Assembly (NCBI GenBank): GCA_022376925.1
Contig: JAIOJX010000004.1
Span: forward strand, 180,387,501-180,451,500
From: Tragulus kanchil
Taxonomy: Eukaryota > Chordata > Mammalia > Artiodactyla > Tragulidae
Length of the DNA stretch: 64,000 nucleotides
Direction of reading: 5' to 3'
Below the pieces are notes generated by a model. The model was not told the origin of the DNA and ran no database searches. It saw only the letters and a list, made by a program, of their open reading frames with translations. Of the stretch, positions 2,731 to 64,000 are shown piece after piece (within the stretch, counting starts at the first letter, position 1; each line of letters begins with the position of its first letter). A program made the translations under genes and the position numbers.

Positions 2731-5700
2731 CTGGGGCCGGCGGGGCTGTGAGGCTGTGGAGTCCTCCTCGGCCCCGCCCACTGCCAGCACAGAGCAGCCA
2801 GGCCCCTCCACAGCCCCGGGGCTCCCGCCCTCCAGGCGGCCCCCCAGATGGCCCCAACTCCACCCGGTGGCACGGGCCGCAACAGCATTCAAGAGGAGAG
2901 CGGAGGCTCAGGGCGGTGGGGCTTCTGTCTGAGGCCACACAGCAGCGAGTGGCTGGGAAACAGGTCAGCCGGGCCCCGTGCAGGGCTCCTTCCAGGCGTC
3001 TGGCTCTCACACACTCCCCAAGGCACCAACACACCGAGGGCGTCGAAGACTCAGGGGCACGGCACCAAGGGTGGGGCAGACTGGGCCCCGAATCTTGGCC
3101 CCCCGCTCCTGGGAACTCGGCTTATCCCTGACTGGAATGCACGAGGGCAGGGACTCCGGTCCTGTCCCCAGCTGTCACTCGGCACCCAGTGCAGTGCCGA
3201 GCATACAGCAGGTGCTCAATAAACATCTTCTGAGTAGTGGCTTGGCCAAAAAGTTCATCTGGGGCTTTTCGCTAAGGTATTATTGGCCAACCCGAGAAAA
3301 GCAAGTGTGGCCTGGAGCAAGTCACTACCCTCTCTTAGCCCCACTTTCTCTGTCTGTAAATGAGAATCGTCTCATGACATCCGACACTGCGTGGGGAAGG
3401 CACAGGGAGAGGCTGATGAAGCCAGGAGGGGCCGGCGCAGCGCAGGTGCCCACAGGAAGGGCCGCCGCTGGACCCAGCCGCTCCCCACCCCTCGGGCACC
3501 GCTCCGCCGACGGGGCCTCACCTTCTGCATCGTCTGGAGCTCATCCCGGAGGCACTGCACCTCCTTCTTCAGGTACTGCAGCTCATTCTCCTTCACGCGG
3601 AGCAGCACCTGGGGTCAAAGGTGCCGGGCTGAGCTCGGGCCAGAGCTCCCCGGCCCACCGCACCCCAAAGCCTGGCTTCCCTCTGCTTCGGGCCCCTAGA
3701 ATGCAGCTCCCAACTTGCACCAGGGTGCCTAGGGACAGATGCCTCCTGGAAGCTCTCTCAGCCCATCTGTGCCATGTGAGTGGGTATCTCGTGGTCACCT
3801 CTGTTGTGGCCTCAACATGGTGCCAGGCCCTCAACTTGGACGCCAGGCCCCCTTTGCTGAGGGCAAAGATCATGATCAGAAGCCACCGTGTGGCCCTCGT
3901 GTGAGCCAGAGAGGGCTGGGCTTTCTCATGAACTGTTTCCTAAACCCTGATGAGCAAGTCCTGCTCTCCTGACCTGACTGAGTGGGAGGCAGGTTCAGCC
4001 AGAGCAAGGGAGGCTTAAAAGCTCAGACTCTGGAGGCTCAGGGCGGTGGGGCCTTGAGGCACAGCAGCAGTGGCTGGGAAACAGGTCAGCCGGGCCCGTG
4101 CAGGGCTCCTTCCAGGCGTCTGGCTCTCACACACTCCCCAAGGCACCAACACACCGAGGGCGTCGAAGACTCAGGGGCACGGCACCAAGGGTGGGGCAGA
4201 CTGGGCCCCGAATCTTGGCCCCCCGCTCCTGGGAACTCGGCTTATCCCTGACTGGAATGCACGAGGGCAGGGACTCCGGTCCTGTCCCCAGCTGTCACTC
4301 GGCACCCAGTGCAGTGCCGAGCATACAGCAGGTGCTCAATAAACATCTTCTGAGTAGTGGCTTGGCCAAAAAGTTCATCTGGGGCTTTTCGCTAAGGTAT
4401 TATTGGCCAACCCGAGAAAAGCAAGTGTGGCCTGGAGCAAGTCACTACCCTCTCTTAGCCCCACTTTCTCTGTCTGTAAATGAGAATCGTCTCATGACAT
4501 CCGACACTGCGTGGGGAAGGCACAGGGAGAGGCTGATGAAGCCAGGAGGGGCCGGCGCAGCGCAGGTGCCCACAGGAAGGGCCGCCGCTGGACCCAGCCG
4601 CTCCCCACCCCTCGGGCACCGCTCCGCCGACGGGGCCTCACCTTCTGCATCGTCTGGAGCTCATCCCGGAGGCACTGCACCTCCTTCTTCAGGTACTGCA
4701 GCTCATTCTCCTTCACGCGGAGCAGCACCTGGGGTCAAAGGTGCCGGGCTGAGCTCGGGCCAGAGCTCCCCGGCCCACCGCACCCCAAAGCCTGGCTTCC
4801 CTCTGCTTCGGGCCCCTAGAATGCAGCTCCCAACTTGCACCAGGGTGCCTAGGGACAGATGCCTCCTGGAAGCTCTCTCAGCCCATCTGTGCCATGTGAG
4901 TGGGTATCTCGTGGTCACCTCTGTTGTGGCCTCAACATGGTGCCAGGCCCTCAACTTGGACGCCAGGCCCCCTTTGCTGAGGGCAAAGATCATGATCAGA
5001 AGCCACCGTGTGGCCCTCGTGTGAGCCAGAGAGGGCTGGGCTTTCTCATGAACTGTTTCCTAAACCCTGATGAGCAAGTCCTGCTCTCCTGACCTGACTG
5101 AGTGGGAGGCAGGTTCAGCCAGAGCAAGGGAGGCTTAAAAGCTCAGACTCTGGAGCCAGGCTGCCTGGCTTTTCCTTCCTGGTTCAAATTCCTGCGCCCA
5201 CGCTGACCAGCCATGTGGCCTTGGGCAAGGCACCTAACCTTCCTGTGTCTCAGTTTCCTCACCTGTAAAATGGGGACAGTAACAGCATCTCTTTTATAGA
5301 ACTGTTACAGGCTTCAGTGAGGCAGCAGATGTAAGGGCTTACAGAAATGCCAGGCAGGGAGTAAGGCTGTGTATAAATTTTTGTTAAATGCAATAAAAGA
5401 CTAGGGTAATCCTGGGACCACATATACATTTTCTTCACTCCAGCTTCTCCCAGTGAGGGAGGGGCTGGCTCCATTTTACACATGAGCCACTAGAGCTCAG
5501 GGAGGCGAGGGGACGGGGCGTGGTCACACAGCCGTCCGGGGTAGGACTCGGGTGGAGAGCTTTCGCCCAGCCGGCCAGGAGCGCCGAGTGCACAGCAGGC
5601 CTCCGCCCCCGCTGCCCTGCGCTTTCCCCACTGCGGGGCGGCTTGGCCTGGGGTGGGGGGCGGGCACACCTCGAGTTCACAGGAGCTCCGCTCGCTGCTG

Positions 5701-8700
5701 CGCCCGCAGCCACTGCCCGTCCCTGCGCCCCGCGAGGCGATGAAGCTGCGCAGCCGGTCGATCTCCTCCGACAGGCGGGCGTGCAGCTCCTGGGGGGCGG
5801 GGTGGTCAGCGCGGGGTGCCGCGACGCCCGCGCTGCCCCCGCCCGTGGGCCAGGCCCACCTGGTTGTGGCGCAGCAGCTCCTGGCCCTCCTGCTGGCAGC
5901 GCCGCAGCGTGTGCTCCCGCTCCTCGGCCTGCCGCGTCAGCGCCCCGATCTCCAGGCACTTCTGCGAGTACCGCTCCGACAGCACCTGCAGCTCCCGCTG
6001 CAGCGCCTCCACGTCTGACCTGAGGGCGAGGCGGCGAAGGACGGCTGGGTCTCCTGCCCTCTGCCAGGCCGCAGCAGGGCCTGCACTCAGCAGCTCGGGA
6101 CGCCTGGTTCTCACGCCCGCACGGCCTGTAGCCCACTGTGGGTCTGGGAACTGGTGTCGGGCACCTCCCCTAAGAGGGGTGGGTGGCTTGGAGAAGCCCA
6201 GCTCTCGTGCCTCCGTGGCCCCAGCATTCCAGAACTGTGCCCTGACAGGGAGGGACACTGACTGGCTGAGACCGTGGCCCAGCTCTGCAGTCGCTTAGTT
6301 GTGTCTGACTCGTTGTGACCCCATAGACTGTAGCCGGCCAGGCTCCTCTGTCCAAGGAGTTTCCCAGGCAAGAGCAGTGGAGTGGGTTGCCATTCCCTTC
6401 TCCAGGGGATCTCCCTGACCCAGAGATTGAGCCTGGGTCTCCAGCATTGCGGGCAGATTCTTCAGTGTCTGCGTCTCCAGGGAAGGCCCTAAGCCCTGCT
6501 CTAGGGGCCACGAAAGCGGGGAGGCAGAGGGGGAGGCTGCGACTGGCTAGACAAGGAGGAGCCTGCGTGCTGTCGTGGGCACGGGCGTGGGGATCCCGCT
6601 GCTTCCGTTCCCTGCGCCCCGCGACTGGAGCAGGAGTCTCAGCTGGGGACACACGGGCAGGCCCTCGGCCAGGGGTCTCCGCACAGGTCCCCCACTCGTG
6701 GCCAGCAGAGTGGACTCGGGCCCGGGCTCAGAGGGCGGCCTTGCACCCGGACAGCAGGGCCCAGTTCCGTCTTACTGGTGCTGCTTCCGGAGGCCGTCCG
6801 GGCCCTGCTGGAGACTCCGGGTCTTGCTCAGCTCCCGGCTCAGCTCCTCCTGGTAGGCTTTCTTCATGGCTTCGATGGCTGGAAGCAGGCCAGAAAGGCA
6901 GAAGGGAGAACAGGGAGGGTCAGTAGTCATGAGCTCTGCTTCTTCTCGGACTCCGCATGGAGACAGGAGCAGAGCGTGGGGAGCGAGGGGCGCTGGGCTG
7001 GGCCGGGTCCGGGACTGAGTGGCTTTGGGTAAGCGGCTCAGCCTCTCTGAGCCTGTCCACCGAGGGAGGATGGCAGTCCCTGTCTAAACGGTCCTGTTGG
7101 GAGACACCTCCGTGACTGCCACTACCTCTTGCTGTTACTGATTTCTGGGTAAGACGACACACAGTCCTCCTTGCAAAGCCTCGAAGGTTCTTGAACCGGG
7201 TTGGCCTGTCTGGCCCAGCCAAGTGGTCAAAAGCATGGCCTCTGTGGCTGGCACAAACCTGTGTGATTTTGTGCAAGGGACCTAACCCCTCTGTGCCTTG
7301 AATCCTCACCTAGAGAACAGGGATAACAATAATGCCTTCTCTCGTGCATCACTGGAAGATGCGTGTAGAGCATGCAGACAGAAAAATGCATGGCACAGGG
7401 GCAGGACCCGGACCTTGGCCCCCGGATTTATTTGCGGTCTGCAAGCCCCCAAGGCCCGGCTCTTTCCACATTCACACGGGGTGGCTGGGAGGATTAAACA
7501 AGCCCTCATTCATGGTCTTATCCATGAACCCACAAGCTCTGAACACTGGAAGCGTCCACAACTCTCTCAGTGGCAATCCCCAGCCCGCACAGACCCAAGG
7601 CTGTCTACGGTCATTACTGTCTTACTCAAGTGCAACACCGAGAAACTCACCGTAAAATCTTAGTGCCAGACTTCAAGTGAGGCCCAGATCCTGCTAGGGG
7701 AGGATGTCTAATATATATACTGCGTTATTATGCTAATATGCAAAACACACTGACCCCAGGGTTTGGGATGAGGGGCCCTCAGTTTTGGGGCTTGAACACT
7801 GGCAGGTGACAAGCTCCGTATCATGAGGCCTCACTCATCACGTCCTCTATTCTGCAACCCCTCTGGAAGTGTCTAGGATATGCCAGACACACACAGCAGC
7901 AGGGGACAGAGAGGAGGGGGAAAGCTGGCCAGCATCCTGGGCATGCCTGTTCCTGACCCGGACGAGCAGAGGGAAGGGTTTAGAGCACGGCTTTGCAGTC
8001 AGAATGCTCTGGGCTCCAACTCCAGCTGCTGCTGTCTCCGAGCTATGCCATCTAGGATGAATCACTAACTTCTCTGAGCCTGTTTCCTCATCTGTGAAAT
8101 GGGTTCACTCCCTGGGGCACCACAAGGACTAAAGTTGCTCATGGGGGTAGTAGGCTTTGGTAAATGCCCACACACTTCCTGGCTCTCTCCTGGGTCCCAC
8201 CCAGAGGCCCAGTGGGATGGCACCCCTAGGAAAGCAGGGTCTGTGGCTGAGCTATCTCTCCCCAGCACACCGAATGGACCTGGCCGTGGGCTGGAGCTCA
8301 GTGCATGGGCATGTGGCTTGAGGTGGGTTTCCCAGTAGCCACAAGCCTGGAGGCAGAAGACCCTAACCCTAACCCATGAAGGGGGGTCCTTTATTGAGTA
8401 TCCCCTTGGCAAGAAGGGTCAGAGGCCACACCTAGGGGATCCTGACCTCTCACCCCAAGGTTAGCACCAGACCCTCCTCTCTTATTCAAAGGCCTCCAGT
8501 CAGGAGGAGCCGCAGCTTGGAGGCTGGCGGGGCCCCGCTTGCTGCTCCTGCTGGGGGTCCCCACCCGCCTGGGGTCCTCCCCCGAGGCCGTGGCCGCCGT
8601 CTCCTTGGCCAGGAGGTTGGTGGGGCCAGGCCCCACGTGCCACTCCCACCCCAGGCCCCCACCCGAGGCCGTGGCCGCCGTCTCCTCGGCCAGGAGGTTG

Positions 8701-11700
8701 GTGGGGCCCAGTCCCATGCGCCGCTCCCACCTCAGGCCCCCACCCGCCCGGGGTCCTCACCCGAGGCCGTGGCCGCCGTCTCCTCGGCCAGGAGCCACTC
8801 CTTCTCCTGCTGCAGCCGCTGCAGCTCCCGCTCGTGGTGCCGCTGCAGCTCCTCCATGACCTGCTGGTGCGAAGACTCCATCTCCGCCAGGCTGCGCTCA
8901 CACGCCTCCTGCAGGGGCGAGGCCAGGCGGTCATGGGCGGCCCCGTGGCCCAGGGGGCAGCCTTTGCCCAGCCTGAGGCAAGAAGACGGGCGGGGGTGGG
9001 GGGGCAGGCCTGCCTTGGTCCAGGCGACACGGCCACCCCAACACCCTGGCATCCTCAGCCTGCATCTGCCCCGGCCCCGACCCCGGCCGTCCACACCCCT
9101 GCCGTCTTTCCGCCCTGCAAGGCAAGTCCCTGCTCCAGCGTCTGACCCACCCTGAGGGCTCAACCTAGGCCCACCCCAACCAAGAAACGCCATAGGTATT
9201 AAAAAAGACACCAAACGGGGCTTCCCCTGGCGGTCCAGTGGGTAAGGACACCGCCTTCCAGTGCAAGGGGCGCCGGTTCGATCCCTGGCCTGGGAGGATC
9301 CCACGTGCCGCGGAGCGGCTGGACCCATGTGTCCAATTACCGAGCCGGAGCTCGGCCACCCAGAGGCCCAGTGGGATGGCACCCCTAGGAAAGCAGGGTC
9401 TGTGGCTGAGCTATCTCTCCCCAGCACACCGAATGGACCTGGCCGTGGGCTGGAGCTCAGTGCATGGGCATGTGGCTTGAGGTGGGTTTCCCAGTAGCCA
9501 CAAGCCTGGAGGCAGAAGACCCTAACCCTAACCCATGAAGGGGGGTCCTTTATTGAGTATCCCCTTGGCAAGAAGGGTCAGAGGCCACACCTAGGGGATC
9601 CTGACCTCTCACCCCAAGGTTAGCACCAGACCCTCCTCTCTTATTCAAAGGCCTCCAGTCAGGAGGAGCCGCAGCTTGGAGGCTGGCGGGGCCCCGCTTG
9701 CTGCTCCTGCTGGGGGTCCCCACCCGCCTGGGGTCCTCCCCCGAGGCCGTGGCCGCCGTCTCCTTGGCCAGGAGGTTGGTGGGGCCAGGCCCCACGTGCC
9801 ACTCCCACCCCAGGCCCCCACCCGAGGCCGTGGCCGCCGTCTCCTCGGCCAGGAGGTTGGTGGGGCCCAGTCCCATGCGCCGCTCCCACCTCAGGCCCCC
9901 ACCCGCCCGGGGTCCTCACCCGAGGCCGTGGCCGCCGTCTCCTCGGCCAGGAGCCACTCCTTCTCCTGCTGCAGCCGCTGCAGCTCCCGCTCGTGGTGCC
10001 GCTGCAGCTCCTCCATGACCTGCTGGTGCGAAGACTCCATCTCCGCCAGGCTGCGCTCACACGCCTCCTGCAGGGGCGAGGCCAGGCGGTCATGGGCGGC
10101 CCCGTGGCCCAGGGGGCAGCCTTTGCCCAGCCTGAGGCAAGAAGACGGGCGGGGGTGGGGGGGCAGGCCTGCCTTGGTCCAGGCGACACGGCCACCCCAA
10201 CACCCTGGCATCCTCAGCCTGCATCTGCCCCGGCCCCGACCCCGGCCGTCCACACCCCTGCCGTCTTTCCGCCCTGCAAGGCAAGTCCCTGCTCCAGCGT
10301 CTGACCCACCCTGAGGGCTCAACCTAGGCCCACCCCAACCAAGAAACGCCATAGGTATTAAAAAAGACACCAAACGGGGCTTCCCCTGGCGGTCCAGTGG
10401 GTAAGGACACCGCCTTCCAGTGCAAGGGGCGCCGGTTCGATCCCTGGCCTGGGAGGATCCCACGTGCCGCGGAGCGGCTGGACCCATGTGTCCAATTACC
10501 GAGCCGGAGCTCTGGAGCGCATGCGCCCAGAGCCAGTGCTCTGCAACGACAGACGCCACCGCGAAGGGAGGCCCACAGGAGCCAAAAAACAAAGATGGAT
10601 GAAACCAGAGAAATGAAAGACCAATAGGAGTGGCCCGCCCGCTCCCCTCCCTCCCCAACCCGACCCCCGCCCAAAAATAAAGAAATAAACAAATATTAAA
10701 AAAAAAAAAGACACCAAACAAAACAGTTCACGGCACGCTCACACCTCTGAGCTTTAGCTCACACTGTTCCCGCTGCCTGGAACATCCTTCTACGGCTTCC
10801 TCTTCCTGGGTAATTCACTTGGCCCGTAGCCCAGCTTAAACATCCCCCAGCTCTGACTCCAGTCAGCCTCTCCCCTGCCTTCAAAGGGTCTGCTTCTGCC
10901 AGATCATAAATTCCCCCCAAACAAGGAAGAGCTGATCTAGCTCAGAGTCGCTGGGGTCTGGGCCAGGGCCTGACGGGTGGCAGGTGCTGAGTAAGTAAAC
11001 TGAAATTGATGACTGATCACAAAATGAGGGTGTGTAGACAAGATTGGCAAGGTTTTAAACGACTGGTAATACCCACTACCGGGAGCGTCGGCTATGACAG
11101 GGCGCACAGAGGGCCATTTGGTGGCATCATCACCTGTTAATGACCCTTTATCCTTGCAGGTCCATCCCTAGGAAGGACCCCACAGAAATTCACGTGTGTA
11201 CGAAGACGCATGGACAAGGGTATTCCCTACGGCCAGGTTGGTAACAGATGAAAACTGGAAAGCTGCTCCCTCTGGCCTGCCTTCCAGAGGGCCCGTCGAC
11301 TGCCGCCTCCAACACAGATCAGAGCAGATAAAGTGATCGTGGCCCCTTCCAGCAGGCACTGAGCTCTGGAGGTGAGACCCCGGGTCACCTGGCCGCTGCC
11401 CTGCGGTGGCCAACCCCACGCGCTGGAAGAGGGGTGCCCCCGTGGCCTGAGATTCCAAGCTGGGGAATCCCTCCCCTGCTGTGACCTCGCCAGGGTCCAC
11501 GGACCCTCCAGCTGCCTTCCCCGGGGCCCAGTGGGACGCAGACGGCTCAGCTCCTCTTCTCGGGAACCCGCCCCACCATCTTGGGCGGCTTCCCCGTCAC
11601 GCCCCTCTCACCCCCAATTCCACGTGCTTGCCCTCCCCACGCCGATCCAACAGGACGAAACGCTGACAGCCTTGGGGAGCCCAACAGGTGCCTGGGGACC

Positions 11701-14700
11701 CGGAAGCCTGGACGGCAGACACGGGTCTGCACCAGCTCGAAGGTCTCGCCTCCTCTCCGGTCTCAGTCTCCCCATCCACAGGCTGGGAAGTCGGAGCAGT
11801 GCTTTTCCAACTTCATTTCAGTGACAAAACCCGGGAATCTAAGGCAGGTTCTAATAGCAAAACGGTCAAGAACAGAGCCGCTGCGGGACGAGCAGCTGTG
11901 GATGGACCACCCAGAAAGGCGGCCCCTGAGGTGCCAAGGGCTCCACCGAGCACAGTCTGGAGCACAGTCTGAAGCCCTCGGAGGAGGGAGGGCAGCGTCT
12001 CTGAGGTCCCCAGATACCTCAGGTGGTGGTGTGGGACCCCACCCGTCTAGAGATGCCCCACCTTCCTCTGGCCTCAAGGGAGCCCTGATAACACCGGGCC
12101 CTCCCCTTCCCCCTTCCCCACGTCAAGCTCACCCCCCACAACATGCCCCCAACTCCCTGCAGGCCTGTCTCCTTCCAGCTGCACATTCCATCAGCCACTC
12201 AGCCCCAGACGGCTCCTGGCCTCGCACGGAAGCCACAGCTCCCAGCCGCCTCCCCTCCGCCTTCCTGGGGGCAACGGCTCGGCCCTGAGCGCTCCTCCCT
12301 CCACCCCCTCCTCCACCCGCCTCTCCTTCAGCATCTGCCCAGCTCCTGAGGCCAGCGCTGGCCCTGCCCCCTCAAGCCCCCGCCTTCCAGCCGCACCTTC
12401 CTGACGTCACGCCCCAGACCCCAAACTTCCTCAGGTACGTGGGACGTGATCCTAGCTCTTCAGCCTGGGGGGCTGCACGACAAACACTGTTCCTCACCTC
12501 CTGCTGCAGCCCACGCCCCGCCCACAGCTCCAGGGAGACTTCCTGAGAGCCCGTGCTCCCCTGGAACTTCTAGAAGCCCGCCCTGTCCAGAGCCTGGGCT
12601 CCCAGCATTCTCTTGTTCTGCTTCAGGCAAGGGCGTGCTAGCTGGGGGCAGCTGATCCTCAGATGTTTAGGAACTCTGTGGTAGTTATTTAGCACAGCTA
12701 TCATTAGAAATGACACACACTTATAATTAGTTCCATTACAATCAAAGCTGAGGAAGTTCCCTGGCAGTCCAGAGAATTCACCTTCCAAGGCAGGGAACGT
12801 GGGTTCGGTCCCTGGTGGGGGAACAAAGAGCCCACACGCCAAGGGACAGCGAAGTCCATGTGCCTTCCCTGGAGAAAAGCCTGCACACCCCAGCGAAGAG
12901 CCTGAAGGCAGCAAGCAAGATCCAGGGTGGCCAAAAATACATACATATTAGAAAACAAAGCCGATACCCAAGAGTCACTCCCTAAGTATTTCACTGCGTT
13001 TCACTGGTAGTGGCGCCCTGGGGGTATGGACGCAGCCTGCACCTGCAGGGCGGAAGTGCCCCCGACGGCGCGCACACGGCTCCCCAATCCTGTTCAGGGG
13101 CGTCAGCTGCAGCAGGAACACTGACATCATGACCACTGGTCAACAGGACAGACCAGAGCTTGATTTACTGTGTGGCCGGCTGTCTTTCCAAGCGATGAGC
13201 AAACGCTATGAGCGCTCACAGCACTGACGAAGCTTCATGGTGTCTCCCAGCTATGACTGTCACATCGCACACAGCACAGAAACCCAATAAACCGCCTGAA
13301 AGGACTATCTTCGAATAGTCTCAGCAGTAAAGGACCCTCCGTTAGAGCAAAGACGCTGCTCGTGACATCGACCGAGTGACGCTTTGACATGTATCCTGCT
13401 GGCCTACTCATTCACACAAACAAAAACGCCAGCGAGCGAGTTAGAATGACACTCATCTGTCAGTTAGCTGTGGATACGAGCATTCGGAAAAATCAATGAG
13501 AATAGTCTGAGAAAAATCAATTTGCTATACGGAATTCACGATGGAAGCATGACTTATTTTTTATTTGTAAGTTGCACACTAGACATCTTTTGCGTCAGTA
13601 AAACGTACAAGAAACATGTGTAAGTGTCAGTGTGTCCACGCACACGTGTTTTTTTCTAGAGAGCTGACTGTCGCAGGAATGATGGTCAAAAGTGTCTCTG
13701 GACACGGCAAAAACGTCCCCAGGGGAACAACATCTACCCTCGCTGAGAGCTGCCGTCTTGGGCAGGCTGTGCGTCCCCGAGGGCCACTGGCGGCGCCCAT
13801 GTCCCGTAGACCACCTTGCGCAAGGCCTCCGCCTGGCAGGCACAAGAGTTCTCACTCTCCATACAGAGGGTCACACGGGGGCTCATGCATGGGCGCAGTC
13901 GGACCCGAGTTCAAATCCCACCTCTGACATCTGTAGGCCGGTTGACCTCAGGCAAGTCACATAACCTCTCAGAGCTCAGTGGCCTTGTCTGCAAAATGGG
14001 CACAGTGCTCACGTCCACCCGCTGGGGAGAGTGAATGAAACGATGCATGTCAGAGGCCTCGCCCGGGTTCCATTCCGGTACAGGAAGCGTTCCCAGAAAA
14101 TCACCAATGTCTCAAAGCACAGCCACCAGAAACCTGCCTCATCCCCCACGCCACAGCTCCTCGGCCTTACCTGTGAGATGTAGCCTGGGGGGATGTGGCC
14201 ATCTTCCTGGGACTTGGGTGCCCCCTGAGGAGCCTCGCCTTGGAGACGCCAGGCCTCTAGCTGAGCACGGAGGGACTGGACCTACGGAGATGGGGGAGGC
14301 GGGGTCAGAGAGGGCCTCAAAGCATGAAGTGGCCTGGTGTGGAGAGGCGAGCTAGGAGGACATTCTAGTTGTTTCCTGGATGGCCAGGTTGGAAACCAGG
14401 AGCGCGCTGGCCCAGAGAAGGCCCGACAGGGTTGGGAGCAGGACGCCACGGCCACAGGTATTCACCACATCATGCAGGTGGGAGGAAACTTCCGAGAGTC
14501 TCCGTTTCCCATCGGGACAACAGTGAGCTGGTCTACCCCTTGGGATCATGAGGCTGCCACGTGACCAGGTGAGGACCGCATGAGCCAATGTAGGTCGGGA
14601 GGTCCTAGCACAAGGCTTGGCATACAGAAGGCGCTCAATAAATGGTCTCTCCCTTCTCTTCCCACTTACCTGCTCTGTGGCTGCTGAGGACAGAACAAAG

Positions 14701-50700: not shown

Positions 50701-53700
50701 TGCTGGAATCCACAAAGATTGTCGCCCAGGTAGTACATGGATAAAACTTCTTGGAAAAGGAAATCTGAAGAAAGAGAGATAAGATTTCTTATGCAGATGC
50801 AAATCTAAGAGAGAATGCTGTCTAAGGGACAACAAAGAGAGGAACTGTGGATGCCAAATATTACCGGTTCCTCAGAGTGATGGAAATGTTCTCAAATGAG
50901 GTTGTAGCGATGGGGTACAGTCGGTCTCAGTAAATAGACTATAAGGGACTGAATTCTATGCGAAAGCTTTGAGACATTCAGACCTATGGCTTTTTCTTTT
51001 GCTCTCCTGACTCAAACTAATGGAATTCCAGCCCCTGATCCTTAAAGACTCTGAGGCTAGAACATTCCACTGCTCAAAGTTTCAAACTCTATCTTCAGAG
51101 ACAAAGCACTAAAACCATACAAATTTCCCAGCAAAGTTGTAAACCCTTGGTTAAAAGGTAAATCATCTATTTCATCAAAACACATATGTGAAATATACAA
51201 CACTTATATATAAACATACCTCAATCAAGCTTTTAAAAAAGATAAACAATCTGCTTCGAAGGGAGCAAAATAAAATGATATACCTGTGTAAAAACAATTA
51301 AATGCTTCATCAAAGTACAAACATACTACAGACTTCTACAATAAATCCCGTCTCTCTCTAAAACTTATCACAGTAAGGATAACAAAGGAAAGGGAATATA
51401 ATTCTGCTATAAAAACCCGACAGAGTTACCAGATAAAGCCAAAAGCGTGCACACTGATGTCAGACCGGAAGAGAGTGACCCTAAAAGGCCAAAGACAAAG
51501 GGGGTTTTCACGGCAGCGATGCTGTTCCATGAGACCCTGCTGGTGGACATACATCGTTTCCTATTTGTCTGAACTCACAGTGTAGGTCACCAGGGTGGAT
51601 GGACCCTGCCGTGAACTATGGACTCTGAATGACACTGGGTCAGTGTGAGCTCGCGGATGGTAACCAGCGGCCCTCCTGGCGGGGCTGGGACCGCAGGCCA
51701 GCGGTACACCTGCAGGAGCGGGGGACACGGGAAATCTCTGAACTTCCCAATTTTGTCATGACCCTTAAAACTGCCCTAAAAACTAAAGCGCTTTCATAAG
51801 AAGCCAAAGAAAGAATTCCACTGATGCTGGAATCCACAAAGATTGTCGCCCAGGTAGTACATGGATAAAACTTCTTGGAAAAGGAAATCTGAAGAAAGAG
51901 AGATAAGATTTCTTATGCAGATGCAAATCTAAGAGAGAATGCTGTCTAAGGGACAACAAAGAGAGGAACTGTGGATGCCAAATATTACCGGTTCCTCAGA
52001 GTGATGGAAATGTTCTCAAATGAGGTTGTAGCGATGGGGTACAGTCGGTCTCAGTAAATAGACTATAAGGGACTGAATTCTATGCCGAAAGCTTTGAGAC
52101 ATTCAGACCTATGGCTTTTTTCTTTTGCTCTCCTGACTCAAACTAATGGAATTCCAGCCCCTGATCCTTAAAGACTCTGAGGCTAGAACTGCTGATGAAA
52201 ATCGCAGCCAGATCTGGAGGAAATGTTTCTCCTCCCTGCGGCTGGGAAAGGCAGATGCTCCGCTGGGTCTTAAATACTTTGGTGAACGGAGCCGCTGACC
52301 GAGGAGACTTGTTCGATGCCTGGACTTTCAGCACTGTCCCAGGAAAGGAATATTGAACCTCTAAAAGTCTGTCATCCTGTGGGTTCTCTTATTTAAAATA
52401 CGTGGTTCTGATCATATGTTGAAATTGACATCTCTGTTTTCTGAAATGTATGGGATCTATGAGGGTCTTTATTATTATAGCTCTTTTTTTTCTCCCTCGT
52501 GTAAGTGGGAAAAACAAAATAAACCCGTGGCTCTCCAACAAAGAGTTCGACTTCATTTAAATTCATGTATTAATATTCCAATTTTACAGATGAGGAAACT
52601 GAGGCTCATGTAGGTTAAATCACTTTACCACGCCACATAGATTGGGGACTGGCTTTGACCCAGGATTTGAACCCACCTGCCTGACCCTGGTCTTTGCTCT
52701 TAACTGCTAGCTATGTGCAATATCATTTAATTCTCAAAAACAACTCTAACATGTGGTACCAGAGAGGTGAAGTGACTTCCCCAAGGTCACACAGCCAATA
52801 AGTGGCAGGACCAAAGGTCTAAACCCTTTCCTCATCTGAAACCTAAACTTGTGGATTTTCCACCTGTCCTGCTGCCGAGCCTCCGCCCCAGCCCGCCTGG
52901 CTGCCCCCGCTCTGGGCTCACCTGCGCTCTTGCCCGAAGAGGCGCTCCACCTCCGCGCGGCCAGGGCTGCGGGTGCGGCCCCCGTTGCTGCCCTGCGGCC
53001 CTGTTCGCTCAGTCGTGCACACCAGATTTCTTATGCAGATGCAAATCTAAGAGAGAATGCTGTCTAAGGGACAACAAAGAGAGGAACTGTGGATGCCAAA
53101 TATTACCGGTTCCTCAGAGTGATGGAAATGTTCTCAAATGAGGTTGTAGCGATGGGGTACAGTCGGTCTCAGTAAATAGACTATAAGGGACTGAATTCTA
53201 TGCCGAAAGCTTTGAGACATTCAGACCTATGGCTTTTTTCTTTTGCTCTCCTGACTCAAACTAATGGAATTCCAGCCCCTGATCCTTAAAGACTCTGAGG
53301 CTAGAACTGCTGATGAAAATCGCAGCCAGATCTGGAGGAAATGTTTCTCCTCCCTGCGGCTGGGAAAGGCAGATGCTCCGCTGGGTCTTAAATACTTTGG
53401 TGAACGGAGCCGCTGACCGAGGAGACTTGTTCGATGCCTGGACTTTCAGCACTGTCCCAGGAAAGGAATATTGAACCTCTAAAAGTCTGTCATCCTGTGG
53501 GTTCTCTTATTTAAAATACGTGGTTCTGATCATATGTTGAAATTGACATCTCTGTTTTCTGAAATGTATGGGATCTATGAGGGTCTTTATTATTATAGCT
53601 CTTTTTTTTCTCCCTCGTGTAAGTGGGAAAAACAAAATAAACCCGTGGCTCTCCAACAAAGAGTTCGACTTCATTTAAATTCATGTATTAATATTCCAAT

Positions 53701-56700
53701 TTTACAGATGAGGAAACTGAGGCTCATGTAGGTTAAATCACTTTACCACGCCACATAGATTGGGGACTGGCTTTGACCCAGGATTTGAACCCACCTGCCT
53801 GACCCTGGTCTTTGCTCTTAACTGCTAGCTATGTGCAATATCATTTAATTCTCAAAAACAACTCTAACATGTGGTACCAGAGAGGTGAAGTGACTTCCCC
53901 AAGGTCACACAGCCAATAAGTGGCAGGACCAAAGGTCTAAACCCTTTCCTCATCTGAAACCTAAACTTGTGGATTTTCCACCTGTCCTGCTGCCGAGCCT
54001 CCGCCCCAGCCCGCCTGGCTGCCCCCGCTCTGGGCTCACCTGCGCTCTTGCCCGAAGAGGCGCTCCACCTCCGCGCGGCCAGGGCTGCGGGTGCGGCCCC
54101 CGTTGCTGCCCTGCGGCCCTGGCTCCCTCCGCTCCAGCCTCCTGGGCGGAGGCAGATCCGCCAGCACGGTGTATTCCTCCCTCTCCAGGTTGTGCCTGAT
54201 CTCCCCCGGTGGTGCGGAGCCCCAGGAGCCGCCCGAGCTGCCCGGCGGAGGCGAGGGTGCCAGGAGCGCTAGCTCGCTGGGCGGGTGGCGGGGTGGGGAG
54301 GAGGCTCGAGGCGCGTCCCGGTGCCCGATGCACACTTGAGGGGGCAGCACTGGAGAGCCCCGCAGAGAGTCAGTGGAGGGGGCCAAGCTCTCCGTGCTAG
54401 TCCCAGGGGGATCCTGGAAGAAGAGGGAGGGCTCCGGGGGCTGGCGTGGTGGGGACGAGAAGGAAGGCGCATCGCGGTGCCCGATGCACACCGGCGTGGG
54501 CGTGTGTCGGGGTTCGTGCAGAGAGTCCGTGGAGGGGGCCAGGCTCTCGGTGCTGGCCCTGGGGAGATCCTGGAAGAAGAGGGCGGGCTCTGGGGCCTGG
54601 CGCGGCGGGGAGGAGGCCCGGGGTGCATCGCGGTACCCGATACACACAGGCGGGGGGAGCTGAGGAGGGTCGTGCTGGGGGGACTGGTGCTCAGCCTCGG
54701 GTGTGTCCGGAAGGAAGGGGAAGGGGTCAAACTGGGTGTGGCGGGGAGGCGAGGAAGCACGGGGAGCGTCCCGGTGCCCAATGCATACAGCTGGGGGCAT
54801 GTAGGGGTTGTGGTGGGGCGATTGACGGACGGAAGGAAGGGGTCGTTGCCAATTTTACAGATGAGGAAACTGAGGCTCATGTAGGTTAAATCACTTTACC
54901 ACGCCACATAGATTGGGGACTGGCTTTGACCCAGGATTTGAACCCACCTGCCTGACCCTGGTCTTTGCTCTTAACTGCTAGCTATGTGCAATATCATTTA
55001 ATTCTCAAAAACAACTCTAACATGTGGTACCAGAGAGGTGAAGTGACTTCCCCAAGGTCACACAGCCAATAAGTGGCAGGACCAAAGGTCTAAACCCTTT
55101 CCTCATCTGAAACCTAAACTTGTGGATTTTCCACCTGTCCTGCTGCCGAGCCTCCGCCCCAGCCCGCCTGGCTGCCCCCGCTCTGGGCTCACCTGCGCTC
55201 TTGCCCGAAGAGGCGCTCCACCTCCGCGCGGCCAGGGCTGCGGGTGCGGCCCCCGTTGCTGCCCTGCGGCCCTGGCTCCCTCCGCTCCAGCCTCCTGGGC
55301 GGAGGCAGATCCGCCAGCACGGTGTATTCCTCCCTCTCCAGGTTGTGCCTGATCTCCCCCGGTGGTGCGGAGCCCCAGGAGCCGCCCGAGCTGCCCGGCG
55401 GAGGCGAGGGTGCCAGGAGCGCTAGCTCGCTGGGCGGGTGGCGGGGTGGGGAGGAGGCTCGAGGCGCGTCCCGGTGCCCGATGCACACTTGAGGGGGCAG
55501 CACTGGAGAGCCCCGCAGAGAGTCAGTGGAGGGGGCCAAGCTCTCCGTGCTAGTCCCAGGGGGATCCTGGAAGAAGAGGGAGGGCTCCGGGGGCTGGCGT
55601 GGTGGGGACGAGAAGGAAGGCGCATCGCGGTGCCCGATGCACACCGGCGTGGGCGTGTGTCGGGGTTCGTGCAGAGAGTCCGTGGAGGGGGCCAGGCTCT
55701 CGGTGCTGGCCCTGGGGAGATCCTGGAAGAAGAGGGCGGGCTCTGGGGCCTGGCGCGGCGGGGAGGAGGCCCGGGGTGCATCGCGGTACCCGATACACAC
55801 AGGCGGGGGGAGCTGAGGAGGGTCGTGCTGGGGGGACTGGTGCTCAGCCTCGGGTGTGTCCGGAAGGAAGGGGAAGGGGTCAAACTGGGTGTGGCGGGGA
55901 GGCGAGGAAGCACGGGGAGCGTCCCGGTGCCCAATGCATACAGCTGGGGGCATGTAGGGGGGGTTGTGGTGGGGCGATTCACTCTCAGAGGCGCGGGGAT
56001 CTGGGAAGAAGGGAAAGGGGTCGTGTTGCAAATAGCGAGGAGGCGAGGAGGCTCTCGGGGCGTCCCGGTGGCCGATGCACACGGCCCATGGCGGCTGGGG
56101 AGGCTCCGCAGAGGTCAGAAGTGCGGCACGGGGAGTGGGGTGCAGAGGCGAGGAGGTCTTGGAGGCACCATGGTGGCCGGGGTTGTGGGAGGAAGCCGCG
56201 GCCCGCGATGGCGCGTGGGGCTGGACGGGCCCGGCAGAGGACGGGGCTGAGTCCCGCTGAGCGGGTCCAGCGGGCGATGAGGCCTGAGGCCTGTCACTCT
56301 GGGTGGGCCGGAGGGCGATGGATGCCCAGGGGACCTCACTTTGCTTGGAGCGAGCCGGGGAAGCGGTTCGGGGGCCATCACTCGGCGTGGGCCGGAGGGG
56401 AAAGGAGGCCCAAGGAATATCTTTGTTGGTGCGGTGAGGAGAGGCGTTCCTGGGATGGCTCCGTGGAGAGGCGCGGCGGGGAGAGGCAGGTGCAGGATGG
56501 TCCTGCTGGGGGCAGCCCTGAGAAGAGACGCCTCCGGGGTTTTCCCGCCGTGGGGAAGAGGGTTTGGGATTGTCCCGCTGGGTACATGAAGCTTTAGAGT
56601 TCTCCCTTTGGGTCGAAGAGCTTCTGGGTGTGTTGTGTTGAATACAAGAAGGTCGGGGGTTGTCCCGTGGCGGGGTACAGGTAGGAACAGGAGCTTGAGG

Positions 56701-57260: not shown

Positions 57261-58495
57261 CTAGAGAGCGGAGGCAGGTGCACGGTAAGCGGAGAGGTCC
57301 CGGCGGCCCCACAGCCAGCCTTCTTTGTCCCCGGGACAGATGATGGGGCAGACCCCACCTGTCTCCCGTGCCCTCCCCGAGGGCGTGCCACATGAGTCCC
57401 GCTGAGCGGGTCCAGCGGGCTATGAGGCCTGAGGCCTGTCACTCTGGGTGGTCCGGAGGTCGATGGATGCCCAGGGGACCTCACTTTGCTTGGAGCGAGC
57501 CGGGGAAGCGGTTCGGGGGCCAGCACTCGGCGTGGGCCGGAGGAAAGGAGGCCCAAGGAATATCTTTGTTGGTGCGGTGAGGAGAGGCGTTCCTGGGATG
57601 GCTCCGTGGAGAGGCGCGGCGGGGAGAGGCAGGTGCAGGATGGTCCTGCTGGGGGCAGCCCTGAGAAGAGACGCCTCCGGGGTTTTCCCGCCGTGGGGAA
57701 GAGGGTTTGGGATTGTCCCGCTGGGTACATGAAGCTTTAGAGTTCTCCCTTTGGGTCGAAGAGCTTCTGGGTGTGTTGTGTTGAATACAAGAAGGTCGGG
57801 GGTTGTCCCGTGGCGGGGTACAGGTAGGAACAGGAGCTTGAGGGCCGTCCTGCCGGGTGGAGGGGGCTCTGGAGGCGTCCTGCTGGGTGACTCTGGGGGG
57901 AGAGGAACCTTGAGGGTTACTTCGTTGGGTGGGGGTTCTGGGGGTGTCCCGCGGGGCGGCTCTTGAGGGGGAGGAGGTTCTGGTGGTGCTCCGTTGAGTG
58001 GAAGACGCCCTGGGGGTGTCCTGCTGGGTGGGTGAGATTCTGGGGGTGTCCCGCGGGGCGGCTCTTGAGGGGGAGGAGGCTCTGGTGGTGCTCCGTTGAG
58101 TGGAAGGCGTCTTGGGGGCGTCCTGCTGGCTGGAGGAGGGTCTGGGGCTGTCCCGTGGGGCGATTCGTGGGGGAGAGGTGGCTCGCGAGGTATTGGGTTG
58201 TGCGGAAGCCGCCTGGGCAACGTCCCGTTGGGCAGAGCGACGGACAGAGGCAGCCTGGGAGGTGGCACTTCGAGGACCGCTCTGTGGCGTCGCAGGAGAG
58301 GCCAGGGCCGGCGCCGACCGGTGCCGCTCCAAGGAGAAGTACCCACTTTCTCCCCGGAGCTTTGCCCAGTGCTGTCCAGCGCTTCGGTGCCCACTACTGG
58401 AGCCTAGAGAGCGGAGGCAGGTGCACGGTAAGCGGAGAGGTCCCGGCGGCCCCCACAGCCAGCCTTCTTTGTCCCCCGGGACAGATGATGGGGGC
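56248..58495. repeat. Tandem block duplication 15 (offset 1,143)
   Basis: Copy A is 56248-57367 and copy B 57393-58495, with about 25 bases of filler (cgtgccctccccgaggg and on). Copy B repeats the 5' half of the giant exon and its acceptor (exon edge at 58403) with small errors at its low end, including a 2-base loss near 57541. Confidence 0.95.
57393..58403 (-). pseudogene. TRIOBP: Partial copy of the giant exon, 5' half
   Basis: It matches 56250-57260, with the acceptor at 58404-58405, but ends at the block junction before the R2 motifs. A 2-base deletion near 57541 breaks the frame. Either this or the matching part of 55193-57260 is redundant; the latter is the intact one. Confidence 0.88.
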
Positions 58496-59036
58496 AGACC
58501 CCACCCTGTCTCCTCAGAGGCGCCCGTGCACCTGCGCCCCTCGGAGCAAAACCAATTGGAGGAGGGCTTAGATGCCGCTCTCAAGCTCAAGTCCGGAATT
58601 TGACGTTGAAAACCAAGCGGACTCGGTCAAAGGAGGGCGGGCGATAGGGCCGAAGGTCACGTGGTCTGAGGGTCCACGAGCAAGTTAGAAAAGCAGCAAA
58701 CTCTTAAAGAGAGTTTTAAAAACAGCCTGTGTGACCCCAGAGAGGAAGAGCTGGCTCCGATAGCAGCTACCAACAACTTTCCATTTCTCTTCTACTTCCT
58801 GCCGTTGGATTCCAAGACCTCCCTCCCTCCCTTCTAGCAAGACTCTTGTGTGACAGCTCTAGAAATTTCCTTTTGTGAACTGGCAGCCTCAGCCTCACCT
58901 GGGGGGTGGGGGGATGCTAGAAATTCAGAATCTGTGCAGGTCCCTGGGCTGGAGCTTCAGGAGAGAAGTGGCCTCATCTTGAAAGAGGCACGACCGCCTT
59001 CATTAAAGGCCATGGTTAAGAGTCCCTCTTTTCTGA

Positions 59037-59148
59037 GGAGCACCCTGGTGGCCTCATGCTTAGGGTTCACTGCCTTGGCCCGGGGTTCCGTCACTGGTGG
59101 GGAACTGAGATCCCACAAGCTGCGTGGCTTGGGCCAAAAAAAAAAGAC
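59037..59148 (+). mobile_element. CHR-like SINE, short (copy at 60140-60255)
   Basis: 'caccctggtggcctcatgc', 'ccggggttccgtcactggtg', ending 'gcttgggccaaaaaaaaaa'. The A-tail is longer in the second copy. Confidence 0.75.
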
Positions 59149-59262
59149 AGGAATTCCTCTTCTCCCACTTTGAAACTTCTGCCTCCTCCAAATCTCTGAG
59201 CTCGGAGATCCAGTACCCATCAAGGAACTCAAACCATGCACAGCAGGTCAAAGGAACTCCAG

Positions 59263-59506
59263 GCGATTCGTGGGGGAGAGGTGGCTCGCGAGGTATTGGG
59301 TTGTGCGGAAGCCGCCTGGGCAACGTCCCGTTGGGCAGAGCGACGGACAGAGGCAGCCTGGGAGGTGGCACTTCGAGGACCGCTCTGTGGCGTCGCAGGA
59401 GAGGCCAGGGCCGGCGCCGACCGGTGCCGCTCCAAGGAGAAGTACCCACTTTCTCCCCGGAGCTTTGCCCAGTGCTGTCCAGCGCTTCGGTGCCCACTAC
59501 TGGAGC
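59263..59506 (-). pseudogene. TRIOBP: Fragment of the giant exon start
   Basis: 244 nt with an intact acceptor, encoding [20 protein letters not shown] onward, ending at the block junction without a donor. Confidence 0.88.
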
Positions 59507-60376
59507 CTAGAGAGCGGAGGCAGGTGCACGGTAAGCGGAGAGGTCCCGGCGGCCCCCACAGCCAGCCTTCTTTGTCCCCCGGGACAGATGATGGGGGCAG
59601 ACCCCACCCTGTCTCCTCAGAGGCGCCCGTGCACCTGCGCCCCTCGGAGCAAAACCAATTGGAGGAGGGCTTAGATGCCGCTCTCAAGCTCAAGTCCGGA
59701 ATTTGACGTTGAAAACCAAGCGGACTCGGTCAAAGGAGGGCGGGCGATAGGGCCGAAGGTCACGTGGTCTGAGGGTCCACGAGCAAGTTAGAAAAGCAGC
59801 AAACTCTTAAAGAGAGTTTTAAAAACAGCCTGTGTGACCCCAGAGAGGAAGAGCTGGCTCCGATAGCAGCTACCAACAACTTTCCATTTCTCTTCTACTT
59901 CCTGCCGTTGGATTCCAAGACCTCCCTCCCTCCCTTCTAGCAAGACTCTTGTGTGACAGCTCTAGAAATTTCCTTTTGTGAACTGGCAGCCTCAGCCTCA
60001 CCTGGGGGGTGGGGGGATGCTAGAAATTCAGAATCTGTGCAGGTCCCTGGGCTGGAGCTTCAGGAGAGAAGTGGCCTCATCTTGAAAGAGGCACGACCGC
60101 CTTCATTAAAGGCCATGGTTAAGAGTCCCTCTTTTCTGAGGAGCACCCTGGTGGCCTCATGCTTAGGGTTCACTGCCTTGGCCCGGGGTTCCGTCACTGG
60201 TGGGGAACTGAGATCCCACAAGCTGCGTGGCTTGGGCCAAAAAAAAAAAAAAGACAGGAATTCCTCTTCTCCCACTTTGAAACTTCTGCCTCCTCCAAAT
60301 CTCTGAGCTCGGAGATTCCAGTACCCATCAAGGAACTCAAACCATGCACAGCAGGTCAGGTTAAATTTTCACTGTT

Positions 60377-60495: not shown

Positions 60496-60852
60496 AGTTT
60501 TTTGCCTGTTGTTGCCTGATGGACTGATAATGTTCCACACCTGCCAGCTTCCCCCAGCTACCTCTTCCCACCTCCTGCTCTCAGCCTCCCTTCTTCCTCA
60601 CCTGGATGGTTACCATAGCCCCCCAGCATGTGCACTCCGGGCACAAGGTCATCATCCAGCCAGGGAGATCTTTCCAAAAGCAAACCTAGCTACACCACCC
60701 CGGCTTACAAGGAGCGACTAGGAGCTACCACAGATGGGAGGAAGCTGACAAGACAAGAGGATGAAAGGCAGTGTGGGATCCCCGGACTGGATCCTGTGAC
60801 AGGAAAGAGACTTTTATGGAAAAAAAAGGTGAAATCCAAAGAAAGTCTGTAG

Positions 60853-61035
60853 TGGGACTTCCCTGGCTGTCCAGTGGCTAAGACTCCATGCTCCCCCTAT
60901 GTGGGGCCCAGGTTCGATCCCTGGCCAGGGGACTAGATCTCACGGGCTGCAGCGAAGGGTTCACATGCCACCATTAAATGATACCTCCTGCCAGCACAGC
61001 CCGATAAATAAATATTTTAAAACAACAACAACCAA
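60853..61035 (+). mobile_element. CHR-like SINE
   Basis: 'gggacttccctggctgtcca', 'caggttcgatccctggccag', followed by 'gataaataaatattttaaaa' and a CAA-rich end. Confidence 0.8.
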
Positions 61036-62029
61036 GTAAGTCTGTAGTTTAGTTAACAGTATCATTACCAATGTAAATTTCCTAATTTTGATTATTGGTC
61101 CATGATTATGTAAGATGTCAACAGGGGAGGAACCCGGGTGAAGGTGCAGTGGAAACTCTCCGTACTATCTTTTAATCTAAAAGATTGAAAAAAAAAAAAA
61201 AAACAACCCACACTAAGGGTTCCCAACTGCAGGTGGAATAAAATCCAGGCACTTCCCACGGCCAGCAAGGCTCTGCCCGCCCCTGCCGGCCTCCCAGCTC
61301 CCCGTGAGTGGGGGCCTCGCCTTCTCATTTACTGTGGTGTTTCCTGGGCCTGGCACGTCCTAAGCAAGCAACACGATTGCCCCACCACCTGTCAGCTCTG
61401 GCTCTGCCTCGTCCTGGAGTCTTCCCGCCCCGCATGGGTGCTGGCTGAGAAAGCATTTACTGCCACTCCCAGCGGCTCACAGCAGGGTCAGCACGCCCGC
61501 CTCGGAGCTCCTTCCCTTCCCCCATCAGCGCATCTCTGAGCCTGGCCATCCCAGGATCTGACTTCATTCCTGCAGCCCCCTCAGCAAGCACATGGCAGGT
61601 GAGGCAGGTGCTCCAGGGCATCTGTGCTTTGTGCCTTGCAGGGCTTGGAACAGCCGGCCCTATCCCATGTGTTTGCAGACTGGGAGGAGCCCCAGAGGGA
61701 TGTCAAAGCTCCCAGCACCTCGCACGTGGCCGTGGCCTCCTGCTGCAGTTGGGGAACCTGCCACCAGGTGGACGGCAGTGACTGCCTTTGATCAGGCAGG
61801 CCACAGAGCCAGGGTTCGCCTCACCTCACGACCCTGTCGTTAAGAGCAAGAAAGCAGCTATTTAGTACAAAATCCCACCACCTATCAGGGCCGTTCACAC
61901 TGGGGAGCCACTTTGTCCCGCATGCCCTCTCCCCAGGGCCTCACGGGGCAGGGCAGCGGGGGTGGGGTGCTGAGGAGATCTGCTGAACGTTTGCTTTTTT
62001 CCCCATCACGTCTCTTTTTAAAAATTCTT

Positions 62030-62325
62030 ATAGTTCTTTTCATCCATCTTTCTTTTTACTTTTTAAATATTTTTTGCCTCTAAGTCATCAGTTATTTTTT
62101 CATCCATCTTTGTTCTTCTGCCTTTGTGGGCCTCCCATCGCAGTGGCCTCTCTTCTTGCAGAGCACCAGCTCTGGGCACATGTGCTCCAGAGCGCTGGCT
62201 CATAAATGGACACACCGGTCCAGCTGCTCCACAGTACGTGGAATCTTCCCAGGCCACGGATTGAACAGGTGCCCCTTGCACTGCAAGGCGGACTCTCTAC
62301 CCACTGGACCACCAGGGAAGCCCCT
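62030..62325 (-). mobile_element. CHR-related SINE with degraded hairpin, reverse (copy at 63198-63493)
   Basis: 'catccatctttgttcttctg', 'gagcaccagctctgggcaca', 'ggattgaacaggtgcccctt' and 'ccaccagggaagcccc'. Here the palindrome has decayed to catgtgct. Confidence 0.82.
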
Positions 62326-62517
62326 GCTGAATGTTTGTAAGAGATGAGGCCGCTGCGGGGGTGAGGATGGACTGGAGGGGTCTGGCAGACACAGAAGACC
62401 TGCAGAAGCCTCTGCCAGTGACCCCTGGTTTGGTCATGGAGCAGTGGTGGAGACATACTGGGGCTGTGTTTTGGAGGTGCTGACCAGGACTGCTTCTGAT
62501 TGGATATAAAGGGTGAC

Positions 62518-62692
62518 AAGGGACTTCCCTGGTCCAGTGGCTAAGCCTCCAAGCTCCCAAGGCAGGGGGCCAAGGTTCAATCCCTGGTCAGGGAACTGGA
62601 TCCCATATGCTGCAACTAAAGGATCCTGCATGCAGCAATGGAGACTGACGATCCCGTGTGTCGCAAGGCCCAGCACAGTCAAGGAAAAGATG
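62518..62692 (+). mobile_element. CHR-like SINE (copy at 63686-63860)
   Basis: 'gggacttccctggtccagtg', 'aggttcaatccctggtcagg' and 'ggcccagcacagtcaagg'. Confidence 0.8.
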
Positions 62693-62710
62693 TCATGGCA
62701 GTTCACCTCT

Positions 62711-62894
62711 CAGTGTGAGTCACTCGGTCAGGTCTGACTTTCTGGGACCCCATGGACTGTAGCCTGACAAGCTCCCCTGTCCATGGAATTCCCCAGGCAA
62801 GAATACTGGCGTGGGTAGCCATTCCTTTCTCCAGGGGATCTTCCCAACCCAGGGATCGAACCCTGGTCTCCTGCATGGCAGGCAGATTCTTTAC
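62711..62894 (+). mobile_element. Bov-tA SINE (copy from 63879 to the window end)
   Basis: 'gagtcactcggtcaggtctg', 'gggaccccatggactgtagc', 'ctccaggggatcttcccaac' and 'ccagggatcgaaccctggtc'. Its first copy is cut by the block junction at about 62895; the second is cut by the window edge. Confidence 0.85.
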
Positions 62895-64000
62895 CATGCA
62901 CGTGGCCTCCTGCTGCAGTTGGGGAACCTGCCACCAGGTGGACGGCAGTGACTGCCTTTGATCAGGCAGGCCACAGAGCCAGGGTTCGCCTCACCTCACG
63001 ACCCTGTCGTTAAGAGCAAGAAAGCAGCTATTTAGTACAAAATCCCACCACCTATCAGGGCCGTTCACACTGGGGAGCCACTTTGTCCCGCATGCCCTCT
63101 CCCCAGGGCCTCACGGGGCAGGGCAGCGGGGGTGGGGTGCTGAGGAGATCTGCTGAACGTTTGCTTTTTTCCCCATCACGTCTCTTTTTAAAAATTCTTA
63201 TAGTTCTTTTCATCCATCTTTCTTTTACTTTTAAATATTTTTTGCCTCTAAGTCATCAGTTATTTTTTCATCCATCTTTGTTCTTCTGCCTTTGTGGGCC
63301 TCCCATCGCAGTGGCCTCTCTTCTTGCAGAGCACCAGCTCTGGGCACATGTGCTCCAGAGCGCTGGCTCATAAATGGACACACCGGTCCAGCTGCTCCAC
63401 AGTACGTGGAATCTTCCCAGGCCACGGATTGAACAGGTGCCCCTTGCACTGCAAGGCGGACTCTCTACCCACTGGACCACCAGGGAAGCCCCTGCTGAAT
63501 GTTTGTAAGAGATGAGGCCGCTGCGGGGGTGAGGATGGACTGGAGGGGTCTGGCAGACACAGAAGACCTGCAGAAGCCTCTGCCAGTGACCCCTGGTTTG
63601 GTCATGGAGCAGTGGTGGAGACATACTGGGGCTGTGTTTTGGAGGTGCTGACCAGGACTGCTTCTGATTGGATATAAAGGGTGACAAGGGACTTCCCTGG
63701 TCCAGTGGCTAAGCCTCCAAGCTCCCAAGGCAGGGGGCCAAGGTTCAATCCCTGGTCAGGGAACTGGATCCCATATGCTGCAACTAAAGGATCCTGCATG
63801 CAGCAATGGAGACTGACGATCCCGTGTGTCGCAAGGCCCAGCACAGTCAAGGAAAAGATGTCATGGCAGTTCACCTCTCAGTGTGAGTCACTCGGTCAGG
63901 TCTGACTTTCTGGGACCCCATGGACTGTAGCCTGACAAGCTCCCCTGTCCATGGAATTCCCCAGGCAAGAATACTGGCGTGGGTAGCCATTCCTTTCTCC

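Follow-up and report, generated by a model that had tools for sequence, protein, structure and literature searches.

Does a stretch of the Tragulus kanchil genome assembly that contains the TRIOBP gene (TRIO and F-actin-binding protein, also named TARA) record a burst of tandem duplication in the animal, or a fault in the assembly? The stretch, referred to here in its full length of 64,000 bases as the window, covers positions 180,387,501 to 180,451,500 of contig JAIOJX010000004.1 (assembly GCA_022376925.1, forward strand). It contains 17 adjacent direct duplications of about 1.1 kb each. Analysis of the differences between the copies, of the spacing of the units and of the TRIOBP coding sequence indicated, with a probability of roughly 0.97, that the 17 duplications are an assembly artefact consisting of unmerged overlaps in a single-copy TRIOBP locus of about 44.8 kb. 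The pattern is real in the letters of the sequence, but very probably not in the animal.

Extent and geometry of the duplicated units

The window was compared with itself by BLASTN on the plus strand, and rows were kept only if they exceeded 95% identity and 100 bp. The 22 rows kept consisted of the 17 tandem pairs and of five rows at offsets of 2,237-2,292, which arise because the second copy of some units overlaps the first copy of the neighbouring unit. The original prediction of 17 near-identical direct tandem duplications of 1.08-1.17 kb, made from the sequence alone, was thus reproduced, with offsets of 1,079-1,170 (mean 1,130, standard deviation (SD) 26, coefficient of variation 2.3%). 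Paired copies were 98.1-100% identical, with no difference at all in three of the 17 units (2, 5 and 13), and in all 17 units consecutive pieces overlap end to start at this high identity. Chance cannot be the source of 17 matches, each of about 1.1 kb at 98-100% identity. All 17 predicted starts were matched and 16 of them lay within 10 bp of the measured ones, but the start placed at 49928 was off, the clean match running from 49998. The earlier position probably takes in a degraded stretch before 49998, because the 58-bp linker of this unit can be aligned, if with numerous deletions, with the sequence immediately preceding that position.

At four places the units form chains (22266-28283, 32278-36385, 49998-55982 and 56248-60358), which include six unit pairs in which the second copy overlaps the first copy of the next unit by 282-426 bp. 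The first chain holds unit 4 (22266..24514; copies 22266-23380 and 23400-24514), unit 5 (24188..26506; copies 24188-25348 and 25346-26506) and unit 6 (26112..28283; copies 26112-27205 and 27191-28283), and the second holds unit 8 (32278..34439; copies 32278-33356 and 33369-34439) and unit 9 (34142..36385; copies 34142-35273 and 35270-36385). The third is made up of unit 12 (49998..52189; copies 49998-51063 and 51122-52189), unit 13 (51906..54121; copies 51906-53003 and 53024-54121) and unit 14 (53696..55982; copies 53696-54826 and 54849-55982), and the fourth of unit 15 (56248..58513; copies 56248-57366 and 57393-58513) and unit 16 (58159..60358; copies 58159-59250 and 59262-60358). The remaining units are unit 1 (2902..5155; copies 2902-4035 and 4032-5155), unit 2 (8197..10512; copies 8197-9353 and 9356-10512), unit 3 (17932..20257; copies 17932-19089 and 19100-20257), unit 7 (29461..31682; copies 29461-30556 and 30578-31682), unit 10 (38122..40348; copies 38122-39232 and 39232-40348), unit 11 (43849..46119; copies 43849-44993 and 44975-46119) and unit 17 (61731..64000; copies 61731-62832 and 62901-64000), the second copy of which reaches the end of the window.

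There were no N bases within the window, and hence none at the 17 junctions, where the end of copy 1 meets the start of copy 2. At 11 junctions 2-68 bp separate the copies, and at the other six the copies share 1-19 bp. The surplus sequence amounted to 19,213 of the 64,000 bases (about 30% of the window), which left a collapsed length of 44,787, or 44,822 with the joins used for the open reading frame (ORF) analysis of the collapsed form, in agreement with the true locus length of about 45 kb that had been proposed. A search for a common sequence trigger at the break centre showed only a slight rise in guanine plus cytosine (GC) content toward the middle of the units, from 0.57-0.58 to 0.63.

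Differences between the copies

In a natural tandem duplication the copies should be intact up to the junction, and the differences between them should be even and directionless. Over the 17 alignments, instead, the 112 columns that differed, of which 82 were indel bases and 30 were substitutions, were concentrated at the unit ends. When the unit was divided into twelfths, the successive counts were 35, 12, 6, 2, 4, 2, 1, 1, 2, 3, 7 and 37. Of these columns, 86 lay in the outer 150 bp on the two sides versus 26 in the middle, a density ratio of 9.

The indels were also directional. At the unit start, bases were missing from copy 2 in 13 indel events and from copy 1 in one; at the unit end, they were missing from copy 1 in 17 events and from copy 2 in three; and in the unit middle, from copy 1 in three events and from copy 2 in seven. 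The direction at the start differed from that at the end with a Fisher P of 9.5e-6 if the events are taken as independent. Because indel events cluster within units, with the 13 at starts coming from units 1, 8, 9 and 15 and the 17 at ends coming from units 7, 10, 11, 12, 14, 15 and 16, a count by unit end is safer. By this count, 10 of the 11 unit ends with indels had the predicted direction, none had the opposite direction and one was a tie (sign P 0.002).

The direction of the indels at the junction therefore indicates that each piece was damaged at its own free end, mostly by loss of bases, while its partner copy is whole there. There is no reason for such mirror-image end damage under natural tandem duplication, whereas it is expected of overlapping consensus sequences laid end to end. 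A test for mirror-image end errors is a simple way to recognise false joins without reads.

The substitutions comprised six transitions versus 24 transversions (P 2e-7 against 2:1), whereas mammalian mutation or heterozygosity gives a transition to transversion ratio of roughly 2:1. With unit 8 left out, there were four transitions and 15 transversions (P 6e-5). Substitutions between the copies of unit 8 were clustered at 32412-32503 and in the matching part of the second copy; nine of the 11 in this unit were transversions, at which the second copy mostly has A, and the cluster is an odd local consensus fault. Because the spectrum is heavy in transversions and there is an excess of indels, the differences between copies are mostly consensus errors, not alleles or later mutations.

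The linkers between copies provided a further line of evidence. Linkers of at least 10 bp (10-68 bp) were present at ten junctions. Each was compared with two flanking sequences, the one that follows copy 2 and the one that precedes copy 1; only the latter was used for unit 17, where the window ends, giving 19 comparisons. The 58-bp linker of unit 12 is a deletion-riddled copy of the sequence preceding copy 1, with none of 300 random placements as good, and the 22-bp linker of unit 14 matches the sequence following copy 2, with two of 300 random placements as good. Both are what piece ends with a failing consensus would leave. The linkers of unit 17 (62833-62900) and unit 13 (53004-53023) presumably resemble ruminant tRNA-derived short interspersed nuclear elements of the Bov-tA and BovA2/ART2A types.

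Possible origin of the overlaps

The observations can be explained if neighbouring assembly pieces share about 1.1 kb at their ends. In the proposed mechanism, the step that aligns and merges the overlap would fail and the pieces would be written consecutively without a gap. Later polishing would then make the copies near-identical except at their outer ends, where reads would fail to map across the false join. The pieces may have been layout units produced by a long-read assembler. From the near-constant overlap, the lack of N bases and the fact that breaks are never less than 688 bp apart in collapsed coordinates, we infer that they resemble layout units of one long-read contig more than the independent contigs that had been suggested.

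The 16 pieces between junctions were 1,803-9,734 bp long, and in collapsed coordinates the break centres were 688-8,577 bp apart. Six of the 16 spacings fell at 688-811 bp (mean 764, SD 48), and none was shorter. When breaks were placed at random in 20,000 trials, 0.8% of the trials had a minimum of at least 688 bp, 0.06% had six spacings that fell within 123 bp of each other, and a single trial had both features, although this test was chosen after the data had been seen.

We tentatively consider wtdbg or wtdbg2 the likeliest assembler, with adjacent units overlapping by one node, a suggestion that falls just short of an even chance. The graph of wtdbg/wtdbg2 uses bins of 256 bp and a default node of 1,024 bp, with at most 256 bp common to neighbouring nodes, and in its consensus step, neighbouring layout units that have one node in common are joined. 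With these parameters, overlaps should be of nearly fixed length and no step should be shorter than 768 bp (3 x 256). The observed overlap was 1,117-1,130 bp and the six shortest steps had a mean of 764, versus 1,024 and 768. In the literature, --node-len has been given values that are each a multiple of 256, namely 1536, 2048, 2304 and 2560 (PMC11087460), and wtdbg2 v2.5-1 or wtdbg v1.2.8 followed by polishing has been used for ruminants, namely mule deer (PMC9650288) and sika deer (PMC10372904). No description of wtdbg node overlap was found in excerpts of articles returned by a literature search that had the paper on wtdbg2 itself outside its scope.

It is possible, if on balance doubtful, that the unmerged overlaps came from another pipeline, in which short-read or hybrid contigs were extended by a similar length into their neighbours, through local assembly or gap filling, and were joined without N. 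A fixed overlap and faulty piece ends would likewise be expected from such a pipeline, and with a GC content that ranges over 0.45-0.66 in windows of 4 kb, short-read coverage could plausibly be uneven. However, end differences dominated by indels suit a long-read consensus better, and the floor and clustering of the break spacing at 688-811 bp are not obviously expected.

It is very unlikely that the units are heterotype false duplications, in which the two haplotypes of a diploid animal are set side by side, although such duplications are known from cattle and other vertebrates (PMC2864568, PMC3411808, PMC9516828). Haplotype divergence would give no fixed length, three units are identical, and the differences that do exist lie in mirror image at the copy ends with a transition to transversion ratio of 6:24. 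Haplotype duplication was rejected on this end-error asymmetry and difference spectrum.

False duplications made by haplotypes have been distinguished from those made by errors, the homotype kind being under-collapsed sequence resulting from read errors (PMC9516828). Judged by features testable from sequence, the TRIOBP window belongs to the error-made kind, since the end concentration and the spectrum of the differences are those of errors rather than of heterozygous sites, and the allelic differences that define the heterotype kind were not found between copies. Homotype false duplications cause false exon gains, as in the TRIOBP window, but they were classified by k-mers and read depth (PMC9516828). 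In another ruminant assembly, Btau 4.2 of cattle, Zimin and colleagues reported that most near-identical duplications are false, and conjectured that overlapping BAC (bacterial artificial chromosome) pieces had not been merged (PMC3411808). The TRIOBP window is alike in having near-identical false duplications, but those of Btau 4.2 were longer than 5 kb and were judged by read coverage (PMC3411808), whereas the units described here are of 1.1 kb and were judged from sequence alone.

The TRIOBP gene and its doubled exons

By homology to named TRIOBP proteins and tblastn maps, the TRIOBP coding sequence occupies 2572..58626 on the minus strand, with the last coding exon at 2572-2733 and the ORF of the giant exon reaching 58626 in the collapsed form. 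A 173-aa ORF matches proteins named TARA, the joined C-terminal peptide matches TRIOBP of sheep, warthog, yak and many others, and a 749-aa ORF matches TRIOBP proteins that carry the giant exon; in the collapsed form, a 764-aa ORF extends over window positions 54039-58626. The locus includes the PH domain and the giant repeat-rich exon of TRIOBP, together with further exons that we take to be coiled-coil exons. Coding-potential scans were run with a human codon table.

When the proteins of sheep, yak, cattle, alpaca and warthog were mapped back by tblastn, the exons were found in order on the minus strand, and stretches in units 1, 2, 3, 7 and 11 were matched twice. Unit 1 contains a TRIOBP exon at 3522-3608 with a copy near 4642-4728, unit 2 an exon at 8762-8911 and again at 9921-10070, unit 7 two stretches (29972-30145 and 31090-31263) that match the start of a warthog TRIOBP isoform, and unit 11 a coding region at 44204-44611 and at 45330-45737. 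A weak double match was obtained in unit 4 with the yak protein (E 0.008). The end of the giant exon, which lies inside unit 14, was matched twice. Unit 15 lies inside the giant exon and unit 16 overlaps the upstream part of its ORF; the stretch common to these two units was matched at three places, as predicted by the chaining of units.

Homology thus places coding sequence in at least eight of the 17 units (1, 2, 3, 7, 11, 14, 15 and 16), of which at least two disrupt it. In unit 3, one copy of a PH-domain exon is cut by the junction, so that one copy reads on and the other ends after LKY. In unit 15, the frame is open throughout copy 1 and in copy 2 there is no such open frame; past a two-base difference at unit position 150, the long frame of copy 2 hits a stop that lies about 90 bp from where the piece starts.

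The exon peptides of six units (1, 2, 3, 7, 11 and 14) were sought in 144 TRIOBP-related proteins with a threshold of 0.55 of the full match. None of the 144 proteins had a second occurrence of any of the six, the top second-place score being 0.35 of the full match. Single occurrences were found in 118, 122, 117, 23, 3 and 22 of the 144 proteins, respectively, and the rest were below the threshold. Of the proteins from near relatives, that of sheep covers units 1, 2, 3 and 11 and that of yak units 1, 2 and 3; unit 14 is covered by a sheep-hybrid protein, and the cattle protein covers unit 3 alone. The gene products accordingly appear to lack doubled exons, as judged on the proteins of related species and not on mRNAs of this animal.

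Evidence from mRNA was used by Kelley and Salzberg (2010) for duplicated overlapping contigs (DOCs), where mRNA alignments use one copy of the duplicated exon in most coding contigs, and for 316 of 381 coding contigs in chimpanzee and 427 of 585 in chicken these alignments favoured an erroneous duplication (PMC2864568). The DOCs lie on separate contigs and were mainly ascribed to haplotype divergence (PMC2864568), whereas the TRIOBP window has no N, units of near-fixed size and differences that resemble end errors.

Real, recent and dispersed local tandem duplications of fixed length in the animal, although they are present in the sequence as given and their copies are near-identical, are extremely improbable and were rejected on the end-error asymmetry, the error-like difference spectrum and the related proteins, none of whose 144 members doubles the exon peptides, and they are further opposed by the two degraded collinear linkers and by the disruption of the PH-domain exon and the giant exon. 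To our knowledge, there is no mechanism for 17 events of 1.08-1.17 kb within 45 kb; a real burst across the gene would imply a copying mechanism with a step of 1.1 kb and with deletion errors at both ends of the joined copies, which is hardly credible.

Unmerged overlaps, the explanation given in the original prediction, are thus supported by the mirror-image end errors, the error-like spectrum, two of ten linkers and the absence of doubled peptides in the related proteins. Several observations weigh against this explanation. Seven of the 17 units (2, 3, 4, 5, 6, 13 and 17) lack indels in their outer 150 bp and are uninformative for the test of end loss, the copies of three units are identical, the end of unit 11 favours neither direction, and 26 of the differing columns are in the middle of the units. 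For eight of the ten linkers tested, no collinear sequence matched significantly, perhaps because these linkers are too short or too damaged, and seven junctions have no linker of at least 10 bp. The peptides of units 7, 11 and 14 were scorable in few proteins (23, 3 and 22 of 144), and a second exon copy could have been dropped by gene prediction in the related proteins, so that the peptide test alone is not proof. Finally, the step of wtdbg fits, but the overlap exceeds the node by about 100 bp, so that some 50 bp more would be required on each side.

The duplications are very probably an ordinary assembly artefact rather than a feature of the animal, and their importance is practical rather than biological. 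The artefact falsely doubles or breaks TRIOBP exons. Sequence of this kind, when annotated automatically, could yield reports of false exon gains, of frameshifts or of a broken gene. Should the fault run through the whole assembly, duplication counts, gene models and read mapping there would be unreliable.

A search of the window against Rfam gave no match at the gathering score, and a PDB search with one 66-aa ORF of the PH-domain region gave no chain at E up to 1. A comparison over a 242-aa stretch at 14901-17810 weakly points to a ruminant that is not a bovid: identity to the window was 96.3% for sheep, 95.9% for cattle, 95.0% for hippopotamus, 94.2% for warthog, 91.7% for alpaca and 91.3% for porpoise, whereas sheep and cattle were 98.3% identical to each other.
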